Source: Brachionus koreanus (taxonomy: Eukaryota > Rotifera > Eurotatoria > Ploima > Brachionidae). Taken from it: DNA of 20,817 nucleotides. Of this stretch, positions 1 to 20,119 are shown piece after piece. The notes beneath the pieces were generated by a model. That model saw only the letters and a list, made by a program, of their open reading frames with translations. It did no database searches and was not told where the DNA came from. The translations under genes and the position numbers were made by a program. The DNA is taken from positions 371,746 to 392,562 of the forward strand of contig PJRA01000220.1 in the NCBI GenBank assembly GCA_016987375.1. The letters are read 5' to 3'. Numbering within the stretch: the first letter of the stretch is position 1; each line of letters begins with the position of its first letter.

Positions 1-615
1 AATTGATATTATTATAAATTGAAAGCTTGAATGTTGCAAATTTCAGCATTGATCGTTTGATCACAAAGCTATTAATCAATCTTGAATAAAAAAATCCAAA
101 TGTTTTTTCTCCACTGTTCGTTTTTGCCATTGGTTCAATCAGAGTTGAATAATAATCAAAATAAGGTAGGATAAATTTTTCGAAAAACTGAACTTTAACA
201 GAGGTTGACAAAAAAAAGTCTTTTAATACTAAACAATTTCTTATTTACTGCAAGCTTGTATAGAGAAATTTAGATAATGATCAATCATAAAACCTAAAAG
301 ACTAATTTCTTTGACAACTTTTATTTCTATTATATTAAAAGACAATTGAAAATTAGCTAATACAGTCTCTTAGTCCTTTTCAGAATGACTAATGTTTGTG
401 TCATCTGCGAACATCTTAATACTAAATTTCTTTAAAAGAAAAGGAAGGTAATTTACAAAAATAAGAAAAAGAAGAGGGCCCAAAACTGAGCCTTGTGGAA
501 CTCCTAATTTAAGTGATACAGGTTTTGAATTTTCTTTACCAAGGCGAACTATTTGGAATCTATTTCTAAAATAATTAGAAAGTAGTCCCAAGGATTCATT
601 ATCAATCAATTGGTT
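1..615 (-). mobile_element. LINE reverse-transcriptase fragment (Jockey/CR1-like), 3' half
   Basis: Reading leftward from about 615: IDNESLGLLSNYFRNRFQIV, then VPQGSVLGPLLFLIFVNYLP (around 440-505) and FADDTNISHSEKD (around 370-410). These are the B-D motifs of a non-LTR reverse transcriptase, and FADD is the catalytic site. Further left, an out-of-frame stretch reads FEKFILPYFDYYSTLIEPM (about 130-185), typical of the region after the catalytic site. Stops and frame changes show it is dead. It abuts an oppositely oriented piece of a LINE at about 616. The window edge cuts the 3' end. Confidence 0.85.
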
Positions 616-1440
616 GCTCAGTGGACCAAAACAACACCAATGGAGACCAAATTTTAAATGAATTAAAAATTTGTATTCTAAACAATAAGTCCTACATTTT
701 TCCGCATTAAATCAGACTACAACCAGATCCTAGACATCTTTCTTTGCTCCTCAAACCTATTTGAAAAGATATTAGATTTTAAAGTTGTGGAGACTTTTGA
801 CTTGACCAGTGACCATTACCTCATATCTATCTGCCTCTCTTCTAATCATTATATAGTCCAAAATTAATGTTCTAGGAAATTTTTTAATTTCAAATTGGCA
901 AAGCGGGATCACTTTTCCGAATACTTGGAAAACATTCCACCTTGCTTTAATACTAATAACTCTGATGACCTATGCACAATCATTACAAACAATAAAGTGA
1001 TGGCCACTGAAAAGTTTCTCCCTACCTATTGGTCAAAATTATATAAGCATTCTTTTCCACCAGAGATTGTTTCTTTAATTAAAGATAGGAGAAAGGCCAG
1101 ACGCTGGAACAAAAAATATAATAACCCAATGGCCAGTGATCTTAATAAGCTTACTGCAATATTAAAGCTAAGAATAAAAGAATTCAGAAACAAAAATTGG
1201 CTTGACTTCATTAATAAACTTGGCACGTCACCCTTGTCAAGTAGACCATTTTGGTAAAGAATTAACAAAATGCGCACAGAAAAATCGTCCAAAAGAATTC
1301 TCACACTAACCTATAATAATCAAAAAATTAAATAAGACGAGGAGAAGAGTAAAATATTCGGAGTAATCCTGGAAGAAATTTTTAACCTAAACGAAACAAG
1401 CCACAACTGTGACAACTAAAGGTTTGAGATAGAACCTAAC
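616..1440 (+). mobile_element. LINE endonuclease-to-RT linker fragment (Jockey/CR1-like), inverted 5' half
   Basis: Starts with DQNNTNGDQILNELKICILN (about 622-680). Next come LDIFLCSSNLFEKILDFKVV and TFDLTSDHYLISI (about 730-830), the C-terminal end of an AP endonuclease with its SDH motif. Then SEYLENIPPCF, WSKLYKHSFPPEIVSLIKDR, WLDFINKLGTSPLSSRPFW and, after a stop, RINKMRTEKSSKRILTLTYN and EEKSKIFGVILEEIFNL, which normally lead into the RT. Several stops. Its content lies just upstream of what the 1-615 piece encodes, so the two are best read as parts of one insertion. Confidence 0.8.
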
Positions 1441-2645: not shown

Positions 2646-3080
2646 ATGTCAAAGAAAAAAGGAGGAAGATCTCTTCCCGCCAAGGCTTATAAACAATTAG
2701 CTAAAACTGAAGAGGAGAATGATGATAATGATCATTCTGAGCAAACATTTGAGCAAATCTATAAAACTAAAAAAAGTGGAGCAGCTCCAAAATTCAAAAA
2801 TTATCAGGAACAAAATACTGAAGTAAATGCGTTTTCCAAGCAAAGAATAGTCAAAAGACAAGACATGATCCGCAAAATGAATCCAGACAAAAATGAGCAA
2901 TTTCTGCAAATCCAATCAAAAGATGTTCCATTTTTAACAGACGAAGGCGAAATTCCATTTTTTACAGACGAAGGCAATTTCTATGATAGACGAACAGGTG
3001 TACAGAAGGCAAAAGAGCTACCTTTATTAGATTGGACACTTATCACAAATAATGTTTTAAATTTTGATGAAATTAAAAAT
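2646..3080 (+). other. Exon 1: charged N-terminal region
   Basis: Encodes residues 1-145. It begins with a Lys/Gly-rich stretch (MSKKKGGRSLPAKAYKQ) and an acidic run (EEENDDNDHSEQ), then mixed charged sequence that looks largely disordered. Two adjacent 9-residue repeats lie at residues 95-112. It ends at a phase-0 GTAATT donor. No recognised domain. It could act as a flexible head or nucleic-acid/tubulin-binding tail, but nothing in it demands that. Confidence 0.6.
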
Positions 3081-6000
3081 GTAATTTAAGAAATTTTTAA
3101 AATATAAATAAGTTTGAGAAAATTTTTTATTTTGCCAGAGTTCAGAATTTTCAAATGGAATAAATTTTGATTTTTCAGGCCAAGAAAGTGCAACCGATTC
3201 GACCTTTTACAAACTAATTGATCTTTTTAATGCACACAAAAATAAAAATTCAATACAATTCGACACAATACGTCTAAATGGATGCAAAAATATTAGCATT
3301 TGGACTCTACATTATTTGAATAAAATGGCTGGATATTCACTTTTTGACTTGAAAAATTCAACAACCCATGTAAACTTTGTCTTTATTTTAAATTTTGGTT
3401 GATTTCTAAAAATTATCAAAAATAAAAGCTTAGCGCAAGAATTAGTGGATGTGATTCTATTAGCGATAGCATGATAGTATCTCTAAGCCCTGAATTGGAC
3501 TTAGAGAAAAGAACAAGTATTTTAAAAATTTTGTTTTTTTTTTTCTCAAAAATAATTACTAATTTAGATTTAAAAACCAAATACGAGTCTAAAGTTGTAA
3601 TTGTAAATGATAACTTGAAAAATTATTCTATTTCAAGCATGATAGTCGGAGACGAGAAAAACACAAAAAAAGTGACAAAAAACTTTTTTCTCTATTCAAA
3701 ATTTAAAGAGTCAAACAAATGTTTACATTTATATGAATGCACCGAGGTAAAGTGTTTTTTATTTATTAGAATAAATGATATATAAAATCTTAATTTTTAA
3801 GAGTTTGTCCGATCTTTTTTTGTCCGAAAGATCAATTGTGATGCTAGTTATGGATATCAAGAAAAAATCATTTGAATATTCTTTGGCTAAAATCATAGAC
3901 TCGATTCTTCAGATAATGAGCACAGTAAATAAAAAAAATTTATATTTTATTAAGTCATAAAATTCTGCTTTTTCTAAATTATTGAATACTTTTGATTCTA
4001 GCATTGATTAAATATTAAAAAATTAAATATTTCACTTTATAATGAATACTCTTCAAGATAATATGCCTATTTCTATATTTCTATGATATAAAAATTTTCA
4101 TGATATGACAAATAATTCTTGGTCGGATTGAAAATCTCTAAGACCTTGATTTGGCTGATGATTTTGCCTAGATATCGCAATAAAAGAACCACATGAAGGA
4201 GAAAACTGAGAAGCTGACGCGCAACACTAGAAATTCTGGTCTAGAAATATTCAGCAGAAAAATAGAAGTTTTTTGCATTATCAAGGAACTGAATACACCA
4301 ATTTCTATCGTAGATGAAAATCTTAAATGCGTGAACACCTTTATATATCAAAGTATCTTATTAGCAAAAATAGAGGATCTAATTAGACATCCGAAATGGA
4401 TTAACCAAGGTCAGAGCTGCTTTCTTCAAAATTAATGAATATGTGGAAATCGTTAATGAATAAAATTCTTAAGAATCTTCTATCCGAAATTCATTGCAAA
4501 GGAGCAGCTAAACAGAAGAACAAGGCTTTGACATGTTTTAAGAATGCCAATAGAACGAATTGGCAGGGTTGCATAATCTTTTACATCCCAAGAAAAGCTA
4601 AATGTTGGAAGACCAAAGATGACCTAGAGGAGAGAAGCTTAAAGAAATGAAACTAACATGGGGACAAGTAGAAATAGTCGCTAAGGATTGGGTAAAATCG
4701 AGGGCACGTGTGGACCCCTTTTGCTCGACTGAGATTGGAAGATGAAAGAAGAAGACAAATCATTACTTGTGATGTGAAATAGATCCATTTTCAATATTAT
4801 AAAAATAAAAATTAGGAATTGCATAAATTTCATAAATTTTTTGAAGAAATTTTCATTTTTTTAGTTAAGTGAGTTCTAGTAATGAGTCACTATGCTGACG
4901 AGAACTGATCATCTAACTTAGGAAGTGATAACATTTGACCAGAAATTTAACTTTAAAGAGATCAAAGAATATCATAAAAAAAATTCAAAATTATCAGTTT
5001 TCAATGTTTAATTTATTCACAATCAGATATAATTTCATTTTCAATTAAAGAAGAATCATTATCCTCTAAATCATCACGATCACAATCTAAAACAAATTTT
5101 ATAAAAATTTTCACTTTTTTTAGACAAAAGTTTTTCTCTATTATATAATTCCATATCCAAGATACCATACCACACTTGTTACATGTTACACGATAAATTT
5201 TTAGTGGAATAACCTTAGTTTTATTTTTTTTCGAATTCCTCTTTTATTTCTGAACATAATTCAAAAAAAGTTATTTTAAAAGCTTTAGAAATGACCAAGA
5301 TACTGTCATTTTAAGTAATAAGCCTATTTAGACTTTAAGCTCATATAACTTTTGAAAGAATAGTCCGATTTCAAAATTTTTCACATTTTTGGTTTCAGCT
5401 CGTCGAGATCTTTAAAAAGATATCATTAAATTAAAAATTTGGATTTTTTTCCAAATTGCCCAGTATTCTTTAATCATCTCAGGTAGGAGAAATCAAGAAA
5501 AAATTTTTAAAAAAAGCAAAGTAAAGTACATGAGATATTGATAACATTTTAATTCAATAAAATTTTATGACTAATTATTAAATTTTTCAATATTTAAACT
5601 TATTTTCAAGAATATATTGCCAAAAAAAATAATAATTTTAACAAATGAGCCAAATCAAATGCAAACAATCAAAGATGAAATTTTAAAAGAACTAGATAGT
5701 ACTAGAAATAGATTGTTGAAATCAATAGCACAATATTCATCTTCATTTATTAATAATAGAACAATTAGTTATAGCCAAAATTTGGCCGAGCAAATAAACT
5801 TAGTGAAAAATGACATTGAATTTTTTCCCATTGATTTTGACGTAAATTTAATACAAAAATAGAGGAAAAATAATTAATTGATGTATTTGTAGCATTCAGA
5901 TGATAATAATTTAAAAATTCAACAAGAATTAGATGCTAAACTTGCTGAAGCAATAGCTAATTTGGATTTAATTTCAACTGAAGAAGTGCAAAAAACCAAA

Positions 6001-9000
6001 AGTTTGAAGATCCCTCCGACTGGACTAAATAAGGTTTCAGAAGCTGTTTGTATTGTGTTCGGTCAGAAACCAAATTTTTCCAATTTTCAAAAGATGTTAA
6101 ATGAAAATTTTTTCACAATGGTCAAAAAATTTGATTATTTAGCTTTATCGGATTATGATTTAAAAAAACTCGACAACTACATTCAAGATGAAGATTTTAG
6201 AAAAGAAAAAATAAATGAAACTAGTAAATTAGGTGGCGCTTTATGTGAATGGGTTCAAATTGTAGCTCAAATATCAAAAATTTCATCTGAAGTAATATTA
6301 AAATTTTATTTATTTCTTTATTTTTATCTAAAAAAAAAATCTAGCAAATGTTTTCTGTGAAAACTTCGGATATTTCTTCTTTGAAAAACTTGTTAATCTC
6401 TAATGCTTGTTATTCATTTACGTGGCAAAATTATTTGAACCAAAATTGGCTTGAAGACCAAACTAAAATATCCCAAGCAGTCAAAATTCAAGAATTGCTT
6501 GATTTAATTGATATGAAAAGAAGTAACTTGCTAAAAATCGACGATTTTTACACAAGTTTAAGATCAAATGAAAATCTTGACAAACTTATGAGAAACGATT
6601 TTGTCTCATTGCCAGACAAAGTCTTAAAGTCAAACTCATCAAATGGAAATTATTTACTTAAATCAATTAGGTCTGATCATGTGGTGACAAATTTAAGATG
6701 GCTATCTGATTTGATTGAATCAATACCTACTCTAAAAATGGACACAGATCTTAACTTGTTGAAAAATAATCTACCTGTTTTGACAAAGCAGACATTGGGC
6801 AATCAACTATCTAATTTAGTACCTGAAAATAAAGTAGTCAAATAATATAATTAAATTTATTTTTAATAAATTTTATTTTTTAACTTCAAAAAATAAAGAT
6901 TGATGATACAATTGATTTTATGTACGAGTCTAATCTATTTTTGAAAATTGATGCACAATCGTTTATACCGATGTATTGTTTAAAAAAAGACATGGAACAA
7001 AATTTGGTAATTTTTTTTTTATTTTGGATAATAATTTTCTTATTTTTACTAAAAAAAAATTTAAATTTGGACACATAAAATATAATTTATTAGTTTAAAA
7101 ATTAAAACTTTTGCCTCTCATATTAATTTAACATATTTCACTTGGTGAACAATACTTTTAGTTAACTCTGAACAATTGATGCTTTGCAGAATTCCAGTTT
7201 TGAGCAATGAGTTACATGACACAGGAAGTATTGGCCAGAAAACTTAATTAATTCTGCTGTTAACTGTTTAAAAAATTGATTTTTGTTACCTCCACTTTTA
7301 CTTTCTGAATCTGCTGACCAGTTTTGATAATAATTTGAAAATTCAACAAGAATTAGATGCTAAGCTAAAGAAGAACAGAAATTAATGCTTAAAAAGTTTG
7401 TAACTGTTTATTCAAAAATTTTTACTAATTCTCTAAATAACGGGTGCCCAATAATGCTTGTCCGAAACTTTAAATTGAAAAAAAACTATGATCCGATTAA
7501 AATAAAATTATGAAAGTTTGTAGTCTTATACAGAATTTTGTCTATTTTTCGAAAATAATAATTAGTTTTTCATTTTTTTCCATATCATACGCCCAGTTGG
7601 GACTCATATGCTGACCCTAAGTTGTCCTCGAAGGTTAAGTAAATTGAATACTAGTATGATATATCATGTTGTACAGAATTTTATCCTGATTAAAATCAGT
7701 CATAATTTATTTTGATCGGATAATTTTTCCAGAAGTTATGATTAAAAAACGTCAAAATTTTAAGGTATTATAAAAAAAGTCTATTTTCAAAAAATTTAAG
7801 TTTTTTTTAAATATCTTCTAATCGGAATTAGATATTAATTTAAAATTTTATACACTTATAATTTAAAAAAATGCTATTAAATGATTACCTAAAATATTTA
7901 AAAAATTGATGTTGAGAAGTTTTTTACGAATTTTTTTGAATTTAGGATGTGATATCTTTAATAGGTGAATATTTAAACAATTTTAATATAAAGAAAGTAT
8001 AAAAAGTTTATCGTTTAAAAGCATAATGCCTAAGCTACTAAAAAATATATAATACTTAATAGTGGTACAAAGTTTTAATGAAAAAAATTTAATTTAAAAT
8101 TGATTAAATTAAATTTTATTCAGATATATAATAATTTGATATTTAAACCCGTTAGTTTCTTTACCATCAAAATGACCAAGGATTTAGAATAATATTTTGA
8201 CTTTTTGATCAATAAATAAATTATTAAGATAAAGATAGGATGAAAGAGAAAGACTTTTATCAGTCTCAATAATTTTGGAACACAACATAGTAGAGAAACA
8301 TTTTGATTGTTTACTAATTATAAACTCATCTAGTTAAATTAGTAATTGTAAAAAAGACTTTAATTTGATTATAATTTTTTATAAATTTTTTTTTTTTTTT
8401 ATATCATATCTCAATTAGTCCATGGGACTTAAACTTATATAAATAAATATCTAACTATAGTTGACAAAAATTAACTATATATATAACACAGGTAGTATTT
8501 TCTGATTTTTTTGTTTAATTGTCGTAAATCTTAACCTTTTCATATTTTTCAGATCTGTTATGGTCTGATGGTTCTCGGTTATAACACAAAATAATAAAAT
8601 ACTTAACTTAAATAGCTTTATTAATAAATGGTCACTTCCAACCTAAACAAAAAAAAGGGAAGGAAAATTGAATTTTATGATCAAATTTTAATGGTCATTC
8701 TCAAAAAATTATCTTTAAAAAAAGATTCTTAACACTAGAAGCACCAAAGAAGTCATTTTGACTCTTGAAAAATTATCTTTTGAAAAGATTTTTCAAATGA
8801 ATATATCTTTTTTGATTTATGTAGATTTTAAAATTTTCTTTAAATAAATGAAATTACCTTATAAAATTATAATTTATAAAATATTTTTGAATTTAATAAA
8901 CGTGAAAAAATGCTTGGTGCTTCTAGTGTTAATGATTTATAGTTAAAATACTAAATGCAGAAACATATTTTCATGTATGACATAGCATGTTAAACCATAA

Positions 9001-12000
9001 ACAAGTATTATTTATTTATTTATTTAATTCAAATTAACCTCCATTAGGAGAAGTAAAATTAAAAGTATAAAAATTTTGTTTATAAAAAATAAAAATAAAA
9101 AATGAAAAGTAGAAAATTAGTTACATATATTGAAAGTAAATTCCTCTGGACCAGATTAAGTGAATTGATTTAATTTGGTTTAATTAATTCATTAAGAAGG
9201 ATTTTGAATTTTTTGAATCTTAAGTTACCCAAACAAAGCTCAATAGAGTCCTAGATACCGTCACGAATTATATACAGTGTTAAATTTTCTAATCCAAAAG
9301 TAAATTGCGATAAGCAAAAAGATTTGTAGATAAAACTTTTTTAGAGAAGGAGAGACGTGGCTCATTTTGTTCAACAAAGACGCTGAGAAGAATGACTTTT
9401 GGACTTGACTAAATTTCCCATTGCAAATATGTTAAAATCTAGATTGGTGTTGATAATGAAACCAAGATATTCTATACTAGTGACAAAATTCAAGTTATTA
9501 TCACTCAAAAAGAAGTCACAGTTAAATAAGATAGGGCCAAAAGTAATTATTTTAGATTTGCATGGGTTAAATTTTAGTCTCCATTTTAGACCATAGTTAC
9601 TGCAAATATCTAATAAAGTTTGGAGATGGTTATCGACCGAACTAATAAGAAAAATATCATCTGCATAGACAATTATTGAAACATTAAGATTATTAAAAAT
9701 GCCACCCAAATTCTTTTCTAAGCATTCTTTTCAATTAGATCGTTAATAAAAATATTGAAAAGGAATTGAGATAAAATTCCCCCTTGCTTAACACCAAATT
9801 CAACTTTTGCATTCATAAAATATTTGCAGAAATTTGCAGACATAAAAAAATAAAGGTTAAATCAAAATCAAGACAAATACAGTTTAACACAGTTTAAATA
9901 CATTCAAATACATACACTCATATCTGGCCAAAGTTGGTGTTTTAGTTATTAATAGAACTAAATTTCTTTTTGGATATTTAAAAACAAAATTGAATTAATT
10001 TTTACAACATTTGAGAATTAGGTACATTAAAACTTATTATCAAGTCCAATTCAGCTTTTTTTTTTGTTTAAATTTAATTAAACTGGTTTAAATTTTTACC
10101 AGGCAAATGAATGGAGCGCTGAATGGAAAAGCTTAGAAGCAAGTGTTACTTGGAACTTATTCAATTCAATTGGAACAAATGCTTTTGCCGAACTTCTTAA
10201 AGCATGTTTTTCGGTTGGGAAAAGTGTTTTATTGTGGCAAAATGGAATAATGAACAGAGAATGTTCCGCAGACATTCTAATTCAAAATTTTGGCTCAAAG
10301 CGTAATTTTTAGAAAAAAAATTGTTCATTTTAAAATTATTAACTGAACTTTTAGTCATTCTTTCTGTAAGAATGCTAAATCCAGAAAATTTGAACATCCA
10401 ACTACCTAATTTCATTGAAAATTTAAAATTCATTTTTATGAGCTATTATCTACTTGTTCAGAAGTTACTTCACAAACACCAAATTCCTCATTTGGTAAGA
10501 TTTATAAAAAAAGCACTTTCTATTTTATTAATAATTTTACTCAGCTTGATTTAAATGAAAATTTTGGTCATCCAGCAGTTTTTGAAAAAGGTGAATAGCA
10601 AATCTTAAAAATCTAACTTATTTTGAATAAATTTCTAAAGGTTTAAAAAATATGACCGATATTCAAAATTATGATAGAGAGTATTTTTCTAATATTCAAA
10701 GCTGCAAACATTATTTTGGAGATCAAAATGTCTGTCAGAGGTGTTTTAGTAAAAATATTGAGCAAGTTCTGTGTCAAAACAAAACTATTTCTAAATTGTA
10801 TCCAAAATTCGAAGAGTTGAATTTTGCTTTAAATGGCATGAATAGAACTAGCAAAATTTTCAAAAAACCTTTGGTTGAAATAAACATAGAGAAAAATAAG
10901 CCACAATCGATTGCTCCCATTTCTTACATGAATCCGGAGAATAATTCTGGTCTAAAATTGAAATTCATAGAAAATGGTAGCAAAGAAGTTGGAATAAAAC
11001 TTTCCCTAAATTAGTAAGTTTTTATGCTGCAAAAATTAACCAAAATTAGTTTTATAAAGTCAAATTCGTCATCAGAAATTAGAAGTTGGAAGTGCTGACA
11101 GTTAAATTAATTGCTAAGGTTCCGGCAATTCAAAGAATCCAGAGTTTTAAATTTTTTAATTTCAATATGAAAACAAAGAATTTATTTCAAAAAAATCATT
11201 CCTCATCTATTAGTTATCTTCTAGTCTATGTTGGATCATTAATATTAAAAATTTGATAAGTTTTTATGTGTTTTATTCCAAATTTAAGCAAAGCATAATT
11301 ATTTTTGGTGAAATTAAAAATATAAAATAAAAAAAAAATTTGAATTAGAGCTACCATTAACCTATGCGAGATCATTGATGGAATATCTATTGATTCTTTG
11401 GTTTTAATGAAATAGCCGAAAGTCCTGACTTGGCCAGGCATTAAAAATTAAAAATCTTGGCCATAATTTAAAATTTTTTTTGCAGCAATTTAAAATGCAT
11501 TATATTAATATTTTTGTAATCAAGTTCAAATGAAACCGTGAGTTTAATTGATCTGAAAAAAAGAACTCAAAAGACCTATGATCAATACAGAATTGTAAAA
11601 CTTTTAAAAACTAGTTTGTTCGAGCTGAATTCACCAGAAGATAAAGATGAAATTATAAATCCAATTTATTCGGGTGATGTGGTATCAATAGAGTTTGAAA
11701 ATTGGGTAAAAAAAATTTTTTTATTCTAAATTAACTTTTATAAAGAGAATCTCAAGTTTTGACACAGGAAAATAATTTAAATTTAAAAATAGAATAAAAT
11801 CATCTATTTTTCAAACTTTTACCCAAGATTGATATGATATTTTTTTAGAATGGATCTTTTTATGACATCAAAATTCGATATAACACTGAAGAATTGTGTT
11901 GTTTTAGAATTGAATCACATTTGAAGATCAAACCTGAAATCAAAATTGAAGGGCTAACAAATTTGCATCAAAATAAAATAAAATTCATTCTATCGAATGA

Positions 12001-15000
12001 AATAATATCCGAATTGGTCTCCTCAACAGATCCAGTAGATAAATCAATCAGAATCAATACTTGCTTAAAATTTTCAGATCCCAATAGTAATAAAACCAGG
12101 AAAATTGAAGTTTATGATCAAATAGTCAAGCTTAAAATTTTTTTTTTCCTTATTCACTCCAAGTGGAGCATAGGATCATTACTTTTGATTCTCACTGATT
12201 TGAAGTCGATATTTTGCCATTGCTTCTCTCCATGTCATTATCATTTCGATGAACTCTTTCGTGATTATTGACTTCCATGCTACTGCTGGTCTTTCTACCT
12301 TTTGTTCTTAATAATCATTGACATAATGGTTCTGAATTTGATTTTTTGTATAGGTCAACATTTGACAATGTCTTCCCACATAAGCTCAAAGATTGTGATA
12401 AAAAAAAAATTTTTAAATTTTCAGATGAAAAATTTATTCCATTAGCATATAAAGATCCACTGATAAACTTGTTTTTTTATGTCTTTAAATTGTGCAAAAA
12501 ATTCATGCATACTTTACAAACTTTTATTTGTTATAAATGTTTTGCTATACATGAAAATGTATTTTTTGCGCTTAATTAAAAGGATTTTTTTGATCACAAA
12601 CTTCAATATGCCAAAATCTTATTTTAATTTGTGCTAATACAAATTTTAAGGGTCTAATAGACAATTAATGGACTATCTGGAAGCTAATTATCATCAGATT
12701 GGTTCAAATATGAAAATAGTTGATGGATCTAGAGAAGAAGGCTTTAGAGGCATTCTGATTCTGCCTGAAGACATGGATAGTTACATAAATGAAAGACTTG
12801 GAATTCAACATTTTATTACAGAGAAGTTTTCAATTCACATGTTTTGTTTAAATTTTGAGAGTAATTAAAAGAATATTTGAAAAAAAAATCAGTTAATTTA
12901 ATTTCTTTAGCCTTAAACGAGCTGGACAAAATATTTTTGTATTCCCATCTTATTGATATACAAGGAATTTCGATAAAAAAAGAAGACATAGACAAAAATC
13001 TTGTGTTATATTTTATGCTTTGTTGTTTTTTGATTTCAAAATCTGAGGTAACTTTAAAAAAAAATTTTTATTCATTAAATTTTTATTATTAAAAAAAAAA
13101 AAGAATTCAAATATTATTCCTTGTAATGAAAATTTATTTCCTAGTTGTTCTAAATCGGATAATTTAAGCGTAAAACTGAAAAATTATTTTTATGAAATTT
13201 TTTCCAGATTGTTAGTATTCTTCGACTTAAACGAAATAAAATATAATCTATACAACCAAGTATCAATTGATATTGAACCTTTAGTGAAAAATTTATCTAA
13301 TGAAGCAAGAAAAAAAGATGAATATTCATTTTTTGGTCGGTGTTCATTCTGTCAATCTAACTGCTACAATTCATTTTCAGAACTAAAGCATTCTGAACGC
13401 ATGAAGAATAAATACTCGCCAAGTGCAATGATTTATACCATAAAAAATGGTAATCCATATGATCTACAGACTCCAGAAGTAATTGACATAAATGATGAAT
13501 TTGTGCAAAAATTCAGCGAAATAAAAATCCTAGGTGTACTAAACCAAAAAGTTTTAATCAATGAATCTAATTTGATTTCAAAGCTTAAGTATTTGAGTTG
13601 TATTCGCTTTGAAAACAATGATTTAGAATCACTTCCTCAGTGTCTATTCGAATTAGACAACTTGATGAGTCTTAGAATTACATTGAATCCTATAAAAAAA
13701 TTTGACTACAATTTAAAAGGTTTAAAAAATTTAAAAAATTTTCATTTAGAAAATTTGTCATTATCTAAAAACAGTTTAACACATAAATTGTCACTACCTG
13801 ATCAAATTAATTCGCTGTCATTTAGTTCAATGATGTTTGATGACTTGCCATTTGACTTTAACAATTGTAAATTATCAATTCAAAAATTGAATTTTTCTGG
13901 CATTGAATGGTTCGATTTAAACAGTTATAGAACTGTTAATTTTTCACAATTGGCTTTTAGACTTGCATTTTATCTAGACATTGGACAAATCACTAAATTA
14001 ATGGCCCATTTTGATCAGTCTAAGTCGGATCAATTGAACAAGCACGAAATTTTGAAGCTAAATGCTTATATTTTCAAAAAATTTCCAAGACTTGTTGAAA
14101 TACCTCGAGTGGTGTTCGAAATGAAAAATTTGACAATGCTAGATTTGTCAAACCATGCTTTAAAACTAATTCCAGACGAGATTGAAGAATTGAAGAATTT
14201 GTCTAGTCTTATTTTGAAAAATTGTATTCTTTTGGAAAGCCTAAGCTCAAAATTGGGCTTTTTACCAATTAAAGAATTGGACTTGGAGAGCTGTTTATCA
14301 TTGAAGACGCCACCACTCGAAATAGTCCGACGTGGCACTAACTCAGTCTTGTCCTATCTAAGAAGACTACTCTCTGGTACAGAAATATGCAAAAGGACTA
14401 AGCTCATGTTGGTTGGACTTGGTGAAGCGGGAAAAACTTCACTAATGAATGCATTAATATCTTCAAGTAACTCTAGAAAGCCGCAACTAACAGATGGTAT
14501 TGACATAAAAGATTGGTCAATAGATTTGCCTGATAGCAGCAAATTGACATATTCAATTTGGGATTTTGGTAAATTCCTTTTTCTAAATGAAACAAAAACT
14601 TAATTTTGAAAATTTAGCCGGACAAAGTGTATACTACAATTCTCACCAGTTTTTTCTGACAGCTAGAGCTGTCTATTTTTTGGTTTGGAATGTACGTTTA
14701 GGAAGCGAATATGCTGGTTTAGATTTTTGGCTCAGTTCAATAAGTTGCCATGCACCGGGAGCTCCTATTTTTGTCATTGGTACTCATATTGATGAAGTGC
14801 CTAAATTTTCGATCAATCAAGAGAAACTAAAATCAAGATATAATCAAATAAGCGGATTCTATTTTGTGTCCAATACAAAAAATATTGGAATAGATGATTT
14901 AGTACAAGATTTAATTGAGGTTACGTTAAAGCAAAAATATATGGATGAAGCAATTCCGGTAAGGGAATATTTTTTAAAAATTTTTCAAACTATTACAGAA

Positions 15001-18000
15001 AAAAGCAGTAATGCTTAAGAGCAAGGAGAGTTCTTTTTTTGGTAGAAAAAAAATTTTTTTTTAAATTTTGAATGATTTTTTGTTTCAAATTTTTCTATGA
15101 ATATTAAAAGTTCGAGCAAAAAAAATAAATAGAAAAATCAAAATTTGTTTTCATAAGAGCTATTTATTAACAAAGTATCATTTATTCCTTTAGTTTAAAT
15201 ATTAATAATCGGAAACAATTTAATTTTTTTCTAAAAGCTATAAATACATCTGAGGTTATGTTCATTTGAATCTTAATTTTGAGAAACTGAAGTTTTTAAA
15301 TTAAAATAACTTTTGTTTTACGAAATCAAAAGATAGTTCTGTAAATGCAATATAATGCAACATTCAACTGAAACAACAGTTGTTTCATTCAAATTTTTTC
15401 TGTGCAAAAATCAACTCTAAAATTTAATTTTAAATAATTTTCTTTTACCTTAACTGTTTTGCCTAATTGCAGAGTTTTTACACAGACTAAATTTGGATGA
15501 AATAACTGTTGTTTCAGCTGAATGTTGCATTATATTGCATTTACAGAACTATCTTTTGATTTCGTAAAAAAAGTTTTATGAATTTTCAATATTTTGAATT
15601 CGACGAATTTGATGCATAATAAATAAACTTATAATTAAAGAGTATTGAGTTAACTGAGCTATTATGACTATCGATCTCTGTAGTAGAAGAAAAAACAGTA
15701 TTAACTTGATTGAATATTGTCTTTTTTTTAGCAAATATGTTCACAAAATGTTGAATAATAAATCTCAAAAAACTAAACTAAGATTAATAAATTAAATATG
15801 AATAAATCTCTATTGTGTAAATTTGATTTTCTAAAAAAAACCCCGATGATTGAAAATTTCAATTTAAACTTGAAAAATTTTTTGATAAATAATAAAATTA
15901 AATGACATTTAACTATCACTTATGTTATTTTCATGCATAAATAAAACAAAAATACTGAGCACAAGATGAATTTTATTTATTGATATTTTATTTTATTAAA
16001 CCAGAGCAAAGTTCTGTAAAATGAAGCAAAGAATAACAAAAATAAAACATTTATCTTTTGTTCTTTCAGGTATACCGCGTTTTATTTTAGATACTGGCTC
16101 ACCGTTTTCTTCCTTGTTACTGCTGGTCTTCCTAGCTTACGTTGCCCTTATGGTATCCATTAAAGGGCCTTTTTTGGTATTCTTTTCAAAAGAATACTTT
16201 AGCAAGTCTTTTCTTTATGTCTCTTTGTGCTCCCATTGCTGTACTAATAGTGCTTCCTAAGTATGTAAATTCGTTTACACACTCGACTTGTGTGAATCAT
16301 CAATTGTGATCGGAGTGTCCAATTTAGTGTTTATACACATAACTTTTGTTTTGGCCACACTTATTTCGAGTTCAGTTGGTTTAGCGTTGCTCGCCAAATC
16401 TTGTGTTTTCATATGCATATTTTCTTCTGTACTAGATATTAACACCAGATCATCAGCAAAGTCAAAGTCTTCAAGTTTGGTTGCTAACCCCTGGCATTTA
16501 CAGTTGTTTTCTTCATTAAATAATCAATCACTATTAGTAATAGTGTCGGAGAGAGAACACGCCAAAGGCTTTTTTGAGTCAATGAAGTTAGGATACAAGG
16601 GGCTGTTCCATTCGATACTTTACTCTATGATGTTCCTAAGTGCAAATATCTGGTCTATGCATCCTTTCTCTCGTCTAAATCCTGCTTGTTCTTCTCTGTG
16701 TGTAACATCCAAAGAGTTTCTGATTCTTTCCAGAATTATGCTACAGAACGCCTTGCTTGCAATTGGTAACAGTGTTATTCCTCTCTAATTATCACAGATC
16801 ATTTTGTTGCCTTTTTTTGGAAGTTTGACTATCAGGCCTTTTGACCAGTCCTCTGGTATAATTTCTTGTCGCCATAATCTGCTGAAGAGATCGTGTAGTA
16901 CCGCTATTGTGATCCTACCAACAACTTTCAACATTTCTGATGTTATCCCGTCAATAATGGGGGCTTTCCTATTTTTTAGAGCCTTTATAGCAGTTTCTAT
17001 TTCTTTTTGGCTTGGAACTTCAGTGTCAATATCGAGATTAGTGTTAGCTGGTTCTGGTTGTAAATGCTCTTTGGGTTCTGGTCTATTTAGAACCTCTTTA
17101 AAGTGCTCAACCCATCCCTGTCCTTGCTCTCTTTCAGTTGTTAAGACACGATCTTCTTTGTCTTTCACTAAATTTGTTCTTCTCTGTAAGTTACCACAAA
17201 GTGATCTTGTGAAGCATATGTAGGTCTTTTAAAATTGTTCAATTGGAATGAATTGGAAGTTTTGTTTGTATTTGAATTTCACAATATCTAAAAATTTTTA
17301 ATTGAAAAAATTATTTTCTTTTAGTTTAAAATCATCAAAATATATTTCAATCTCAATAGAAATTTATAAATTTTAATTAAAAAAACCTTTTTACTTTAAA
17401 CTAAAAGAGCGTTTGGTTAAATTTTGAGAGCTTGGTGAAGAAAAGAAGCCAAATTGAATCATTAGTAAGCTACGATTATGTAGCATCGTTGGCAACAGAA
17501 TGTGGCATTTTTGAAAATAATGAAATACTTGAAGCAGTTCGATTTTTAAACGACCTCGGCTCAATACAGTACTTTGAACGAAATGGCTTGAAAGACCGAG
17601 TAGTCATCGATCCTCAAGTATTTTTAATTCTTTTTTTTTTATAAAAAAAAATCAATTTAAATAATCTTAAGTGGATAATAAAAGTAATTTCATGCATAGT
17701 TTCGGTAAAAAATACTGTCATTGAAAATGGAAATTTGGCGCATGCAAACATTGCCCAAATTTGGCAGAAATACGATCAATCTCTACACGATTGGATTTTA
17801 AAATTGACTGAAGAATTTGACTTAACATTTAGTGTTGCTGAAAAGAAAATGCATATAATTCCATGTTTATTGCCGGAAAAAAAGCCGGACTTTGAATGGA
17901 CTGACCTGAGTCAAATCGGCTCACGTTCTCTGTCAACTGACCTCAAGGAATACATTGTGGTTTACAATTTTGAATATTTACCAGCTGGCCTTTTTAACCG

Positions 18001-20119
18001 CATTCAAGTAAGACTGTTTCAGTATGGCGATAATTCAATCATTTGGAAACATGGCTCTTTGCTGCGCAAAAATTACCAAAAAGCTCTAATTGAAAACACA
18101 GATGTAGCTACTATTCAAATAAAAGTACAAGGAAATAAACCAGAAAATATTGTTTTTGTTATTCATGAAGTGATTGAATCGTTGATTAATGAATCATTTG
18201 TGGGCATTAAATATGACTACAGTTTTCCATGTCCTGAGTGTGTCGATTCGCAAAAAGGTGATCCCTGCCTTTTTAGTCTATCATTGCTGCATAGAGCCAA
18301 CGAATTCCAGGCACCATTTTTGCAGTGTAGCAAATATTTTCATGCTGTTTCAATTGAAGAAATGATGGCGATTATGCCAATAGATGGAATTTCAAATCTG
18401 GACATGAATTTAGAATATTCGCTGCGTCATCTGAAACAAATAAAAAGTAAACTTAAATATGATATTGCATTTTGGTACTGTGAAAATGACACTAAAAGTC
18501 CGGTTAGTCCAATTGATGTTATAGAAAAAATAGAGAAACAAGACTTCAAAATATGGTACAGTCGCCATCCAAATGGGGAAAAATTGGACGCAATTACCTA
18601 TGCTCTCAAAGAATCTAAGCTAGTCATATTGGGAATTTCAGACGAGTTTGCCAAAGACAAAAAATGCCTTGAGGTCTTATCACTGGTTAAGAATTTGTTG
18701 AAAAAAAATTATCTTTTAATTGAATTCGGACCAATTGGTGGCCGAAATTGGATAAAAAATCCGGCATTTGCACCAATATGCAGCGATTACAGAATTATAA
18801 TGCAAGATCCGAAACGACTTGAAGTTAAACTAAGTGAAATGTTTGACTCGATTGAATTACAACTTGAAGACACAAAAAACAGTCGACAATTAAACAAAAA
18901 ACCGCCTCAAGTGTTCATCAGCTACTGTTGGGCTAACTCGCATGACGCAGGCAAAAAAGGCTCTCGAACCACGCCGACCAGTCTCGGATGGTTAGATCCT
19001 AGAGGTTTGGCCAAATTTTTGGAAGATAATGGAATTTATTGTTGGATTGACACTCAAGAAATAAACAACAGTGGAAGTATATTTGGTGCTATGACAAAAG
19101 GAATGAATACAGCCAAACTAATTATAGCTTGTGTGTCTGACGAGTATGTGAATTCGGGCACATGCAAAAACGAGTTTCGTTTTGCACATGTTTCTCTTAA
19201 GATTCCAATTGTGAAGGCTGTTGTTGGAAGTGGAAATTTGTGGAGGCGCAATGAAATAGCTTTTCTAAGCGGTGATTATCCAGAGTTCAATTTTCAACTA
19301 GAAAATAAGAAAGCTCTTGATGAGCTGCTTGAATTAGTTAGAAAATATGTAGGTAATGAAAACGAAGATGAACTGTTGAATGAAAATTCAATTAAACAGG
19401 CCGATTCCACAAATTCGGCCTTTCAAGAACTTTACGAGTTAACACAGAGACGATTTTTGAAACAAATAGGAAAAATTGTCTATCAAATGTCATCCAACTA
19501 TTTAAATTATCCATTTTTGTTTTGTATTGATTTAATAGATCCTAAAAAATTGGTTAATTTTAGTGAAGAGATTAAAAAAGAAAATAAAATGATTCACAAA
19601 ATAAGCAAAGATGATGAAGAAATTGAGCTTTGCACTTGTATTCGCACATTGTGTGAACATGAGGAAGGCTGGCATTTGTCTGACTGGGTGGTCATTGTGT
19701 CTGAGCTTTTGCCTCAATATTGTGGTTATTTATTGCGCATAATGAACATAATTAAGAATGGTTTGCTCTCAAATGAAATGCAAATATTTCAGCTAGATAT
19801 AGGACATAGCATTTTGGCAGATATTGATAGAAAATCAAGTCTAACTAAAAACCTGAATGAGTCTTATATGTCTTTGAGGAAATTTTATGCCGAAAATTTC
19901 GATGCAAATAAGATTTTTTCTTTGACTGCTGATGTTAGTGATGATTTGAATAAATGTGAGCTAAAAAGTGGAAAAAAACTTTGGTTGTGTGGAGAACATT
20001 TGGCTTCGACGAATGCAAGAATTATTGACAATGCATTCAGAAACGAAACGTTCAAAGATGATCCTTTAGCTTTTCAAATTTTGGATGCAATAAATAACAT
20101 TGATGCTTCAATTGTTTAG
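2646..20119 (+). CDS. Giant multi-domain ROCO-family protein with dynein-stalk insert and two C-terminal TIR domains (spliced, about 22 exons)
   Basis: One spliced gene of about 2,800 codons. The first ATG after an in-frame stop (TAA at 2610) is at 2646, and the TAG stop is at 20117-20119. Domain order: basic/acidic N-terminus, LRR, degenerate Roc, dynein stalk-like domain, COR, unrecognised middle, second COR-like remnant with Cys cluster, LRR, intact Roc, COR, TIR-like, TIR, Cys/His-containing C-terminus. ROCO proteins are GTP-regulated cytosolic scaffolds (LRRK, MFHAS1), and TIR domains signal by assembly or by cleaving NAD. No signal peptide or clear membrane span is seen. Continuity as one gene rests on matching splice phases and on motifs rebuilt across introns (WDFAGQ over 14569-14617, DPQ-W over 17618-17671). 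Weak points are the exon 15/16 and 16/17 joins and the long introns, where a split into two genes cannot be excluded. The function is inferred; the family assignment is firm for the last module. Confidence 0.8.
2928..2981 (+). repeat. Two-copy 27-bp in-frame tandem repeat
   Basis: Two near-identical 27-bp units starting at 2928 and 2955 encode PFLTDEGEI and PFFTDEGNF. This is a small in-frame duplication inside exon 1. Confidence 0.85.
3139..3516 (+). other. Exons 2-3: N-terminal leucine-rich repeats (cysteine-containing type)
   Basis: Exon 2 enters in phase 0 after a 58-bp intron (acceptor TTTTGCCAG). It encodes a repeat with the core IRLNGCKNISIWTLHYL, and exon 3 carries a matching unit ARISGCDSISDSMIVSL. 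The L-x-x-x-G-C-x-x-I/L-(S/T) pattern is that of cysteine-containing LRRs, which usually form a curved protein-binding surface. Only about two repeats are visible, so this is a short or eroded array. It sits directly before a Roc-like region, the normal LRR-Roc order of ROCO proteins. Confidence 0.55.
4120..4740 (+). mobile_element. LINE ORF2 fragment (RTE/CR1-like), 3' end, in intron 5
   Basis: DLDLADDFA (around 4143-4170) is a decayed catalytic FADD motif. HMKEKTEKLTRNTRNSGLEI (around 4190-4250) is the following helix, and NTPISIVDENLKCVNTFIY (around 4290-4350) is the stretch before YLGS. After a deletion it resumes with DDLEERSLKK and MKLTWGQVEIVAKDWVKSRA (around 4650-4710) and ends with a C-terminus RVDPFCSTEIGR and a stop at about 4731. 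It parallels the minus-strand copy at 16020-17225 (DTPITIDD, VECVNEF), so the two come from one related group. Frameshifts make it dead. Confidence 0.75.
4741..5610. other. Remainder of intron 5
   Basis: A+T-rich. No plus-strand coding was found until exon 6. It holds one minus-strand open stretch (5018-5250), listed separately. The acceptor for exon 6 is TTATTTTCAAG ending at 5610. Confidence 0.5.
5018..5250 (-). other. Antisense open frame with CxxC and acidic tail, inside intron 5
   Basis: Reading leftward from about 5250 there are 73 or so uninterrupted codons, including KIYRVTCNKCGMVSWIWNYI, KKVKIFIKFVLDCDRDDLED and NDSSLIENEIISDCE, then TAA at about 5018. For such A+T-rich DNA the composition (Cys pair, Trp, acidic end) is unusual. 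No start codon opens it, so it would be the last exon of a nested gene or a transposase C-terminus. Equally, part may be an intron, since TTGTTTTAG sits before the acidic end. Not recognised. Confidence 0.3.
5893..6291 (+). other. Exon 7: dynein heavy-chain stalk / microtubule-binding-like domain
   Basis: This single 399-bp exon encodes 133 residues with phase 0 at both ends. It starts with helical sequence LQQELDAK-like (IQQELDAKLAEAIANLDLIS), which resembles the end of dynein coiled coil 1. Next comes the signature SLKIPPTGLNKVSEAVCIVF (around 5992-6051), then GQKP, FFTMVKKFDY, DLKKLDNYIQDEDFRKEKI and GGALCEWVQ (around 6232). Each matches the conserved order of the dynein stalk tip: K-x-PP-x-x-x-x-x-V-M-E-A-V-C-I-L, G-x-KP, F-L-x-x-L-x-x-F/Y-D, Y-I-x-D-x-x-F and GLCxWV. 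Coiled coil 2 is not evident in exon 8. In dyneins this unit grips microtubules at the tip of a stalk of two antiparallel helices. Here it sits between a dead Roc and a COR domain. Family resemblance is strong; binding is inferred. Confidence 0.75.
7007..8728. other. First part of long intron 9
   Basis: No coding found. The donor is GTAATTTTTT after exon 9 (phase 0). The stretch contains a 41-bp partial copy of exon 7 (7326-7366) and a region with repetitive look between about 7438 and 7760 (CCGATTAAAATAAAATTATGA at 7485, partly echoed in reverse around 7680-7725). The rest is A/T-rich. Confidence 0.45.
7326..7366 (+). repeat. 41-bp partial duplicate of the start of exon 7
   Basis: Matches 5902-5942 at 39 of 41 bases. 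The source encodes DNNLKIQQELDAKL at the start of the dynein-like exon. Similarity stops abruptly on both sides, and no further exon-like sequence follows. Confidence 0.8.
8729..8932. mobile_element. piggyBac-like MITE with TTAA target-site duplications
   Basis: A 196-bp element (8733-8928) is bounded by TTAA on both sides (8729-8732 and 8929-8932). Its ends are perfect 14-bp inverted repeats, CACTAGAAGCACCA and TGGTGCTTCTAGTG. TTAA duplication is the hallmark of piggyBac-type transposition. The interior is A/T-rich with no coding, so it would need a transposase from elsewhere. Confidence 0.85.
9008..9830 (-). mobile_element. LINE RT fragment in intron 9 with tetranucleotide tail
   Basis: Reading leftward: FGVKQGGILSQFLFNIFIND (around 9730-9800), a frameshift near 9725, then IIVYADDIFLISSVDNHLQT (around 9625-9685) with the YADD catalytic site. 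KWRLKFNPCKSKIITFG and IEYLGFIINTNLDF follow, then a decayed thumb region (SPSLKKFYLQIFLLIAIYF, around 9280-9350). At the left end (TTTA)n at about 9008-9028 reads (TAAA)n on the element strand, a simple 3' tail as in CR1/L2/Jockey types. The sequence differs from the 16020-17225 group, so it is a different LINE family. Confidence 0.75.
10545..11013 (+). other. Exons 12-13: Cys-containing linker after COR1, unrecognised
   Basis: Exon 12 is only 46 bp (LDLNENFGHPAVFEK) between introns of 50 bp each. Exon 13 encodes about 124 residues with a Cys/His cluster, CKHYFGDQNVCQRCF (10702-10746). This may correspond to the Cys patch that follows the canonical COR near 18227. The rest (EINIEKNKPQSIAPISYMNP, then KLKFIENGSKEVGIKLSL) is not recognised. 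The exon ends in phase 2 at a strong GTAAGT donor (11014), and the TA left over is completed by T at 11525 to give Tyr. Confidence 0.55.
11014..11524. other. Intron 13 (511 bp)
   Basis: Strong GTAAGT donor at 11014; acceptor GTAATCAAG ending at 11524. The joined codon is TA|T (Tyr). The content is A/T-rich with no recognised element; short open frames here are not supported. Confidence 0.65.
11525..12845 (+). other. Exons 14-17: unrecognised middle region
   Basis: Exon 14 (IDLKKRTQKTYDQYRIVKLL, then GDVVSIEFENW) and exon 15 (NGSFYDIKIRYNTEELCCFR, then IKIEGLTNLHQNKIKFIL) alternate hydrophobic residues as in beta-strands. Exon 16 contains KFIPLAYKDPLINL. Exon 17 contains YHQIGSNMKIVDGSREEGF and RGILILPEDMDSYINERLG. 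I do not recognise a family. Exons 14 and 15 are joined in phase 0 across a 143-bp intron. The exon 15/16 boundary is uncertain and lies next to a LINE tail. By position this stretch replaces the Roc part of a middle ROCO module, but no GTPase motif is visible. Confidence 0.5.
12137..12305 (-). mobile_element. LINE 3'-end fragment with poly-A tail in intron 15
   Basis: On the minus strand: ERPAVAWKSIITKEFIEMIM, TWREAMAKYRLQISENQK and a stop, matching the (G)RPA-x-TW-x-x-x-I...TW-x-x-x...A-x-x-R pattern near the C-terminus of RTE/CR1-like ORF2. The homologous point in the copy at 16020-17225 is about 16107-16135. It ends in TCCACTTGGAGTGAATAAGG and then a run of A (poly-T at 12138-12147 on the plus strand). 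Only the last 170 bp or so are present, as expected of a 5'-truncated insertion. Confidence 0.65.
12911..13364 (+). other. Exon 18 and start of exon 19: second COR-like remnant with Cys cluster
   Basis: KEDIDKNLVLYFMLCCFLIS followed by NSNIIPC parallels SLHDWILKLTEEFDL...HIIPC of the canonical COR. FYEIFSRLLVFFDLNEIKY then parallels LFNRIQVRLFQ. SIDIEPLVKNL parallels the helix VIHEVIESL. EYSFFGRCSFCQSNC (13317-13361) parallels DYSFPCPECVDS after the canonical COR. The exon 19 acceptor is the A-tract AAAAAAAG ending at 13103; it restores phase 0 after a 56-bp intron and adds 34 codons ahead of the first start-like codon. The LWxxG part of COR-C is missing, so the domain is shortened and probably structural. 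Confidence 0.5.
13500..14318 (+). other. Exon 19: second leucine-rich repeat array
   Basis: About eight to ten LRR-like units. Clear ones are LKYLSCIRFENNDLESLPQC, LKNLKNFHLENLSLSKNSL, MKNLTMLDLSNHALKLIPDE, LKNLSSLILKNCILLESLSS and IKELDLESCLSLKTPP. The spacing is about 23 residues, as in the LRRs that precede Roc domains in LRRK/MFHAS1-type proteins, and the array ends just before the Roc linker. Between the early and late units is a less regular stretch of about 80 residues (13850-14090). Likely a ligand- or partner-binding surface. Confidence 0.85.
14340..14958 (+). other. Exons 19-20: intact Roc GTPase domain
   Basis: The linker LSYLRRLLSGTEICKRTKL leads into the P-loop GLGEAGKT (14415-14438). 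Next come the switch I motif LTDGIDIKDW with its Thr, the Walker B/G3 motif WDF-AGQ, FFLTARAVYFLVWNV, and the G4 motif FVIGTHIDE (around 14767-14793). The 49-bp intron 14569-14617 interrupts the G3 codon: G from exon 19 plus CC from exon 20 makes Ala, giving WDFAGQ exactly. All parts needed for GTP binding and hydrolysis are present. Compared with the first Roc this is the working copy. It ends in KYMDEAIP, the usual start of COR. Confidence 0.92.
15308..15575. mobile_element. Palindromic (foldback) MITE-like element
   Basis: Two arms of about 105 bp are inverted copies of each other, about 15308-15413 and 15470-15575. A shared core is ACGAAATCAAAAGATAGTTC, continuing TGTAAATGCAATATAATGCA, then ACATTC and CTGAAACAACAGTT. 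The arms differ at only a few bases over their outer 80 bp. A loop of about 55 bp separates them. No coding. The terminal bases (AACTTTT.../...AAAAGTT) are imprecise, so I cannot name a superfamily or a target-site duplication. Confidence 0.8.
16020..17225 (-). mobile_element. LINE ORF2 (RTE/CR1-like) reverse-transcriptase fragment in intron 20
   Basis: Reading leftward: GWVEHFKEVLNRPEP (around 17085-17130), then IETAIKALKNRKAPIIDGIT (around 16950-17010) and IIPEDWSKGLIVKLPKKGNK (around 16800-16860). RGITLLPIASKAFCS, EEQAGFRRERGCIDQI-like sequence, DFDFADDLVLIS (around 16440-16470) and FTYLGSTISTAMGAQRDIKK (around 16200-16275) follow. This is the ordered RT domain from motif 0 to the thumb. 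Stops (for example at 16793) and frameshifts show it is inactive. It is less A+T-rich than its surroundings, marking a later arrival. Endonuclease and 5' end are absent. Confidence 0.88.
17408..18340 (+). other. Exons 20-22: canonical COR domain with trailing Cys block
   Basis: After a 2,449-bp intron, phase 0 is kept and MDEAIP joins SVWLNFESLVKKRS, the standard entry to COR (IPxSYLxLE). VSYDYVASLATECGI, AVRFLNDLGSIQYF, VVIDPQ|WIIKVISC (joined over a 54-bp intron), NGNLAHANIAQIWQKY, IIPCLLP, GLFNRIQVRLFQ and IIWKHGSLL follow in family order. Beyond COR lies a Cys block, PCPECVDSQKGDPC, with a later C at about 18329. COR mediates dimerisation and passes Roc nucleotide state to the C-terminal effector. 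The alternative acceptor at 14998 would put other sequence after IP and break the match. Confidence 0.88.
18455..18850 (+). other. First TIR-like domain, apparently lacking the catalytic glutamate
   Basis: YDIAFWYCEND opens the fold, then IEKQDFKIWYSRHPNGEKLD, ITYALKESKLVILGISDEFA, KKCLEVLSLVKNLLKK and YLLIEFGPIGGRNWI. The layout is that of a TIR domain: an opening strand with acidic residues, a switch to a W-bearing second strand, an I-x-x-A-(I/L)-x-x-S-x-x-x-I-x-x-x-S helix/strand, then a Cys helix. In NAD-cleaving TIRs the Cys helix reads C-x-x-E. Here the position three after Cys is Val (18674-18676), with Glu one residue earlier. Likely a scaffold copy that pairs with the next TIR. Confidence 0.65.
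18905..19294 (+). other. Second TIR domain with conserved glutamate
   Basis: PQVFISYCWANSHD is the classic first strand. GLAKFLEDNGIYCWIDTQEI, SIFGAMTKGMNTAKLIIACV, SDEYVNSGTCKNEFRFAHV and IPIVKAVVG follow. The helix motif S-x-x-Y-x-x-S-x-x-C-x-x-E places Glu at 19172-19174, the position of the catalytic Glu in plant, SARM1-like and many invertebrate TIR NADases. An insert of about 15 residues (GKKGSRTTPTSLGWLDPRG) follows the first strand, as is common in invertebrate ROCO/NLR-like TIRs. NAD cleavage is possible but inferred. Confidence 0.88.
19355..20116 (+). other. C-terminal Cys/His-containing domain of about 250 residues
   Basis: Follows the second TIR after an acidic linker (NENEDELLNENS). 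It is mainly helical, with CTCIRTLCEHEEGWHLSDW (around 19633-19689) and, near the end, KKLWLCGEHLASTNARII. The C-x-C...LC-x-H...GWH pattern looks like a small metal site or a Cys/His fold. I recall similar LC-x-H / GWH motifs at the ends of invertebrate ROCO and NLR-like proteins but cannot name a family. It ends with AFQILDAINNIDASIV before the TAG stop. Confidence 0.5.

Follow-up and report, generated by a model that had tools for sequence, protein, structure and literature searches.

A dynein stalk-tip-like domain within a predicted tandem ROCO gene of the rotifer Brachionus koreanus

A single predicted gene fills most of the window, by which we mean the whole 20,817-nucleotide stretch of DNA that was analysed. 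The gene, modelled from sequence, runs from 2646 to 20119 on the plus strand and has 21 exons encoding 2756 amino acids. We scanned the genome (83,257,189 bases in 92 contigs) and found a second copy of the whole gene on another contig (C16), with blastn blocks of 78-96% identity (89-96% for the exon-bearing blocks). In both copies, frame and splice dinucleotides are kept in 21 of 21 exons, there are no internal stops, and all exon-length differences between the two are multiples of three. The choice of junctions was partly guided by phase agreement, and independent support for them comes from conservation in the C16 copy and in relatives. The whole-gene dN/dS between the two copies is 0.21; judged by this ratio, they are under purifying selection. 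A rotifer spliced-leader pattern had 0 matches and was uninformative. The exons, in window coordinates and with the support for each, are as follows.

Exon 1, 2646..3080 (+): N-terminal extension, residues 1-145; ATG, frame and splice site the same in C16
Exon 2, 3139..3369 (+): LRR-like segment, residues 146-222; C16 copy, and related sequence at four other loci
Exon 3, 3429..3516 (+): LRR-like segment; C16 copy and spliced alignments of relatives
Exon 4, 3568..3746 (+): start of a degenerate Roc (Roc-1), no P-loop seen; C16 copy and relatives
Exon 5, 3802..3924 (+): core of degenerate Roc-1; profile-profile match to the second Roc (Roc-2)
Exon 6, 5611..5841 (+): last part of Roc-1, then the beginning of coiled coil 1; C16, relatives and profile-profile comparison
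Exon 7, 5893..6291 (+): dynein stalk-tip (microtubule-binding) domain, residues 430-562; Pfam MT, PDB sequences, predicted fold and dN/dS 0.20
Exon 8, 6345..6833 (+): COR-A-like, degenerate first unit; family profile of exons 8-12 against the second COR (COR-2)
Exon 9, 6899..7006 (+): end of the COR-A-like part; C16 copy and profile-profile comparison
Exon 10, 10103..10301 (+): COR-B-like; C16 copy and profile-profile comparison
Exon 11, 10355..10494 (+): COR-B-like; C16 copy and profile-profile comparison
Exon 12, 10545..10590 (+): C16 copy
Exon 13, 10641..11013 (+): middle region; C16 copy
Exon 14, 11525..11705 (+): middle region; C16 copy
Exon 15, 11849..12086 (+): aligns with the MBT-scoring region of relative C15a1; C16 copy and relatives
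Exon 16, 12651..12860 (+): C16 copy
Exon 17, 12911..13047 (+): C16 copy and relatives
Exon 18, 13104..14568 (+): LRR and first part of the intact Roc-2; Pfam Roc above cut-off, LRR_14 below cut-off
Exon 19, 14618..14958 (+): second part of Roc-2; Pfam Roc 78.6 bits, spliced
Exon 20, 17408..17617 (+): COR-A; Pfam COR-A 105.2 bits, spliced
Exon 21, 17672..20119 (+): end of COR-A, COR-B, TIR, C-terminal part and stop; Pfam

One-base differences around exons 15 to 17 had been read as frame changes; given the splice sites at 12086, 12651, 12860 and 12911 they are intronic, and that reading was rejected. The start of exon 7 recurs as a 39-base copy (7325-7363) in the intron after exon 9, with 89.7% identity to the C16 exon. 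Open reading frames that by eye resemble non-LTR retrotransposon proteins lie at 370-711(-), 868-1257(+), 9371-9730(-) and 16275-17228(-), in intergenic and intronic positions.

The second half of the predicted protein (exons 18-21) has the order LRR-Roc-COR-A-COR-B-TIR, in which Roc, COR-A and COR-B score 78.6, 105.2 and 100.7 bits, and the LRR falls under its Pfam cut-off. With a Roc followed by a COR, this half is, by its domains, a ROCO protein. Two TIR_2 stretches were counted in the C-terminal exon (17645-20119), possibly a tandem TIR. In the first half (exons 1-17), the MT domain of exon 7 is the only Pfam match over its cut-off. The LRR nature of exon 2 is our own reading, as Pfam has no LRR match there.

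It is improbable that the two halves are separate genes, that is, a dynein-tip/degenerate ROCO gene (exons 1-17) and an LRR-Roc-COR-TIR gene (exons 18-21). The long introns would fit such a division, as would the Brachionus plicatilis models P0007 and P0011, which span the second half only (in a search that covered proteins up to 1.75x the 815-aa query). Against it, exons 17 and 18 are joined by a 56-base GT/AG intron in phase 0 in both the window and C16, and the junction has the same phase at the same column in the relatives at C2, C15b and C15a1. The halves are also adjacent and colinear at all six loci, namely the window, C16, C2, C27, C15b and C15a1.

Exon 7 had been described in an initial annotation as a dynein heavy-chain stalk domain covering residues 430-562, and the 21-exon model gives the same residues. 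The resemblance is real. Exon 7 alone scores 25.2 bits against the Pfam MT family (PF12777, curated cut-off 24), and it matches PDB sequences, the nearest of which are axonemal chains such as dynein-1-beta and DNAH2/DNAH6. The predicted structure is a helical tip between two antiparallel helices, and the closest fold to this model is mouse cytoplasmic dynein (3err), in agreement with the stalk-tip fold that the annotation implied. The term "stalk domain" needs narrowing to a tip with a short coiled coil, since the match spans only profile positions 90-206 of 344. The long coiled-coil stalk is absent from this match, whereas the best dynein rows in the same genome match positions 2-344. No AAA family (motor ring) was detected when the exons and the spliced pieces were scanned with Pfam. 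Between the window and C16, exon 7 has a dN/dS of 0.20 (dS 0.128 from 9 changes, dN 0.025 from 8 changes).

The single-domain score is barely above the cut-off, and in longer queries the window copy falls below it (19.1-22.2 bits), as might happen with a chance resemblance, a pseudo-exon or an assembly join of a dynein fragment. Relatives with the same insertion contradict this explanation, which we consider negligible. The initial annotation had pointed to related genomes as a place to look for the insertion; we found it within the same genome, at C2, C27 and two C15 loci (C15b and C15a1). Searching the regions fetched for these loci by tblastn with the full protein recovered the same colinear order at each, although at C27 the stretch between the exon 9 and exon 18 matches is mostly N, leaving COR-B and the middle region unread there. 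Spliced alignments recovered the tip at four of four loci. Taken by themselves, the tips of C2, C15b and C15a1 reach 31.8-54.4 bits against MT, over the Pfam cut-off, and in the genome scan C2, C27 and both C15 loci exceed it. Counted by COR-B, the tip is present at six of ten loci in the genome; the other four comprise two that are unreadable at the place of the tip and two that were left out.

The genome has 27 rows matching MT. Five belong to this gene family, and their matches are confined to profile positions 90-211. Each of the remaining 22 extends outside these positions, as expected for pieces of a complete stalk; the C16 copy is absent from the 27 rows. The six loci that we inspected among the other 22 are dyneins in which coiled coil flanks the tip on either side. 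In an unrooted tree of tips, in which the dyneins are these six from the same genome, the seven embedded tips form one group with support of 97/96. This grouping fits a single uptake with duplication afterwards. Three public proteins resemble different parts of the gene: P0002 (tip, 82%), P0004 (exon 8, 83%) and P0008 (COR-TIR, 90%). The longest contig given for each of them has 20,982 bases, and the three are taken to share one contig.

Some further properties of the relatives are noted here. The C15a1 locus (C15:1223-1240k; L021-L022) has an MBT repeat (PF02820, 2.4e-8, over cut-off) at residues 945-984 of a 1139-aa spliced piece, located in the middle region between the first COR and the second LRR. 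Exon 15 of the window aligns with this repeat and has no Pfam match. The contig pairs C37/C16 and C2/C27 carry near-duplicate copies of the ROCO-tip gene, and C37/C16 also have similar MT rows of a dynein, suggesting uncollapsed haplotypes or a segmental duplication.

The surroundings of the tip in the first half are degenerate. Neither exons 4-6 (Roc-1) nor exons 8-12 alone have a Pfam match, and by eye no P-loop or DxxG is seen in six aligned members of Roc-1. Profile-profile comparisons were made, each with 100 controls (one reversed and 99 column-shuffled). The profile of exons 8-12 (five members) scores 38.1 against COR-2 over 167 columns (control maximum 25.5; hhalign probability 45%), and that of exons 4-6 (six members) scores 21.3 against Roc-2 over 46 columns (control maximum 16.4; hhalign probability 2.5%). 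The AlphaFold model of exon 8 reaches a pLDDT of 33.5, so its fold was not obtained and the identity of this first COR (COR-1) rests on the profiles. Given these scores, the tip probably lies between a Roc remnant and its COR, upstream of a second, intact Roc-COR. The initial annotation had a degenerate Roc before the tip and a COR after it; this placement stands in that both scores beat 100 of 100 controls, with hhalign probabilities that are low.

An alternative is that the acquired dynein piece was larger, comprising the tip and AAA5, with exons 8-12 as a degenerate AAA5. The idea arose from a by-eye alignment of exons 9-11 to the AAA5 consensus. We rejected it as very improbable, because the relatives show a COR-like region, the COR-2 score exceeds its controls, and exons 8-12 match no Pfam AAA family.

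A more specific proposal about the uptake was not supported. Exon 7 has phase 0 on both sides, and the initial annotation took such a symmetrical exon as a trace of exon shuffling. In four of four relatives in the same genome, the tip exon is longer, starting upstream of the exon-7 start in phase 2 and ending in phase 0 (from spliced alignments for all four and open frames for three, C27 having the alignment only). At six dynein loci of this genome, the open frames that contain the tip are 276-1071 aa long and run past it on both sides. With longer phase-2 exons in the relatives and long frames in the dyneins, the symmetrical exon is, as far as these gene models go, confined to the lineage of the window and is no mark of uptake.

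Whether the tip binds microtubules bears on its function. A study of the yeast tip lists salt bridges to tubulin by K3117, E3122, R3124, R3152, R3159 and R3201 (PMC7042235). We compared the charges at these positions in one MAFFT alignment, which left out C16, C27 and P0002. In the window copy the charge is retained at one of six positions (K for R3124), and R3201 is replaced by glutamate. More are kept in C15b (4/6), C2 (3/6), C15a1 (2/6) and P0003 (2/6), and six dyneins of the same genome keep two to four. The helix-3 arginines are basic in only 1 of 12 cells of these dyneins, so their loss in the tip is not decisive. Microtubule binding by the tip is what we infer from the sequence; for the window copy the case is weakened by the loss of five of six contacts. 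This copy may have a different protein as its partner, or a less firm contact with microtubules.

The lost contacts, one with its charge reversed, also fit a tip that no longer binds microtubules and serves, between COR-1 and what is left of Roc-1, as a structural spacer or a module for protein-protein interaction. The lack of visible GTP-binding motifs in Roc-1 itself points the same way. Opposing this are the 14 invariant columns of the tip core across eight aligned members, the retention of E3122 and a basic residue at R3124 in C2, C15b and C15a1 (with a basic residue at R3201 also in C2 and C15b), and the fact that contacts are no better preserved in several of the true dyneins of this genome. 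We regard a spacer as a serious possibility, albeit the less likely one.

The best explanation, which we favour with some reserve, is that the tip of this tandem ROCO gene is a docking module for microtubules or an axonemal partner. The two helices flanking the tip would exit and rejoin the Roc-1/COR-1 body, forming a short protruding hairpin. Through the tip the protein would be, or would once have been, attached to microtubules or an axonemal partner, and the intact LRR-Roc-2-COR-2-TIR half would provide sensing, GTP switching and TIR signalling. The gene would thus encode a ROCO/TIR receptor equipped with a docking module, which may have become weaker in the window copy. A bolder extension, which we think unlikely, is that the tip helices, rooted in Roc-1 and COR-1, take over the registry switch of dynein. 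Motion of Roc-COR would then slide the helices and change the grip on the microtubule, or microtubule occupancy would gate TIR signalling; if so, these proteins would sense the condition of microtubules or cilia. A GTPase/TIR family that retains the tip alone would offer a natural test of the domain as a detachable, motor-free microtubule anchor.

The combination was not known to the initial annotation, and among the matches listed from open-access full text we found none that deals with a ROCO protein carrying a dynein tip. In the portion consulted of a review that divides ROCO proteins into three architecture groups, the word "dynein" is absent (PMC6337361). The parts are known, and it is their combination that appears to be undescribed within the literature searched.

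Exon 7 shares its stalk-tip fold and sequence signature with the MT domain of dynein heavy chains (PF12777; PDB 3err, 6rza, 6kjo). It differs from them in having no AAA ring found and no long stalk, in its setting within a GTPase protein, and in the partial loss of contact residues. The second half has its counterparts in Roc-COR-TIR proteins of other animals (Glandiceps, Sinanodonta, Lingula, Mizuhopecten and Aplysia), which share COR-A, COR-B and TIR, and several of which also have Roc and LRR. These five proteins are 1122-1373 aa long and MT is absent from their listed Pfam domains, in a search that covered the same range of lengths as above. Among named relatives, the best match to the last exon is P0007 of B. 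plicatilis, annotated as "putative serine threonine- kinase pats1", with 82% identity over the COR-TIR exon (50% for P0011). Both models, named as kinases, begin within or after Roc-2 and are thus unable to show a tip. In LRRK2, the Roc domain itself makes the microtubule contact, whereas in the rotifer ROCO protein a dynein-type tip would do so. If the tip anchors, ROCO signalling, which is relevant to LRRK2, would be linked to microtubules by a second route.
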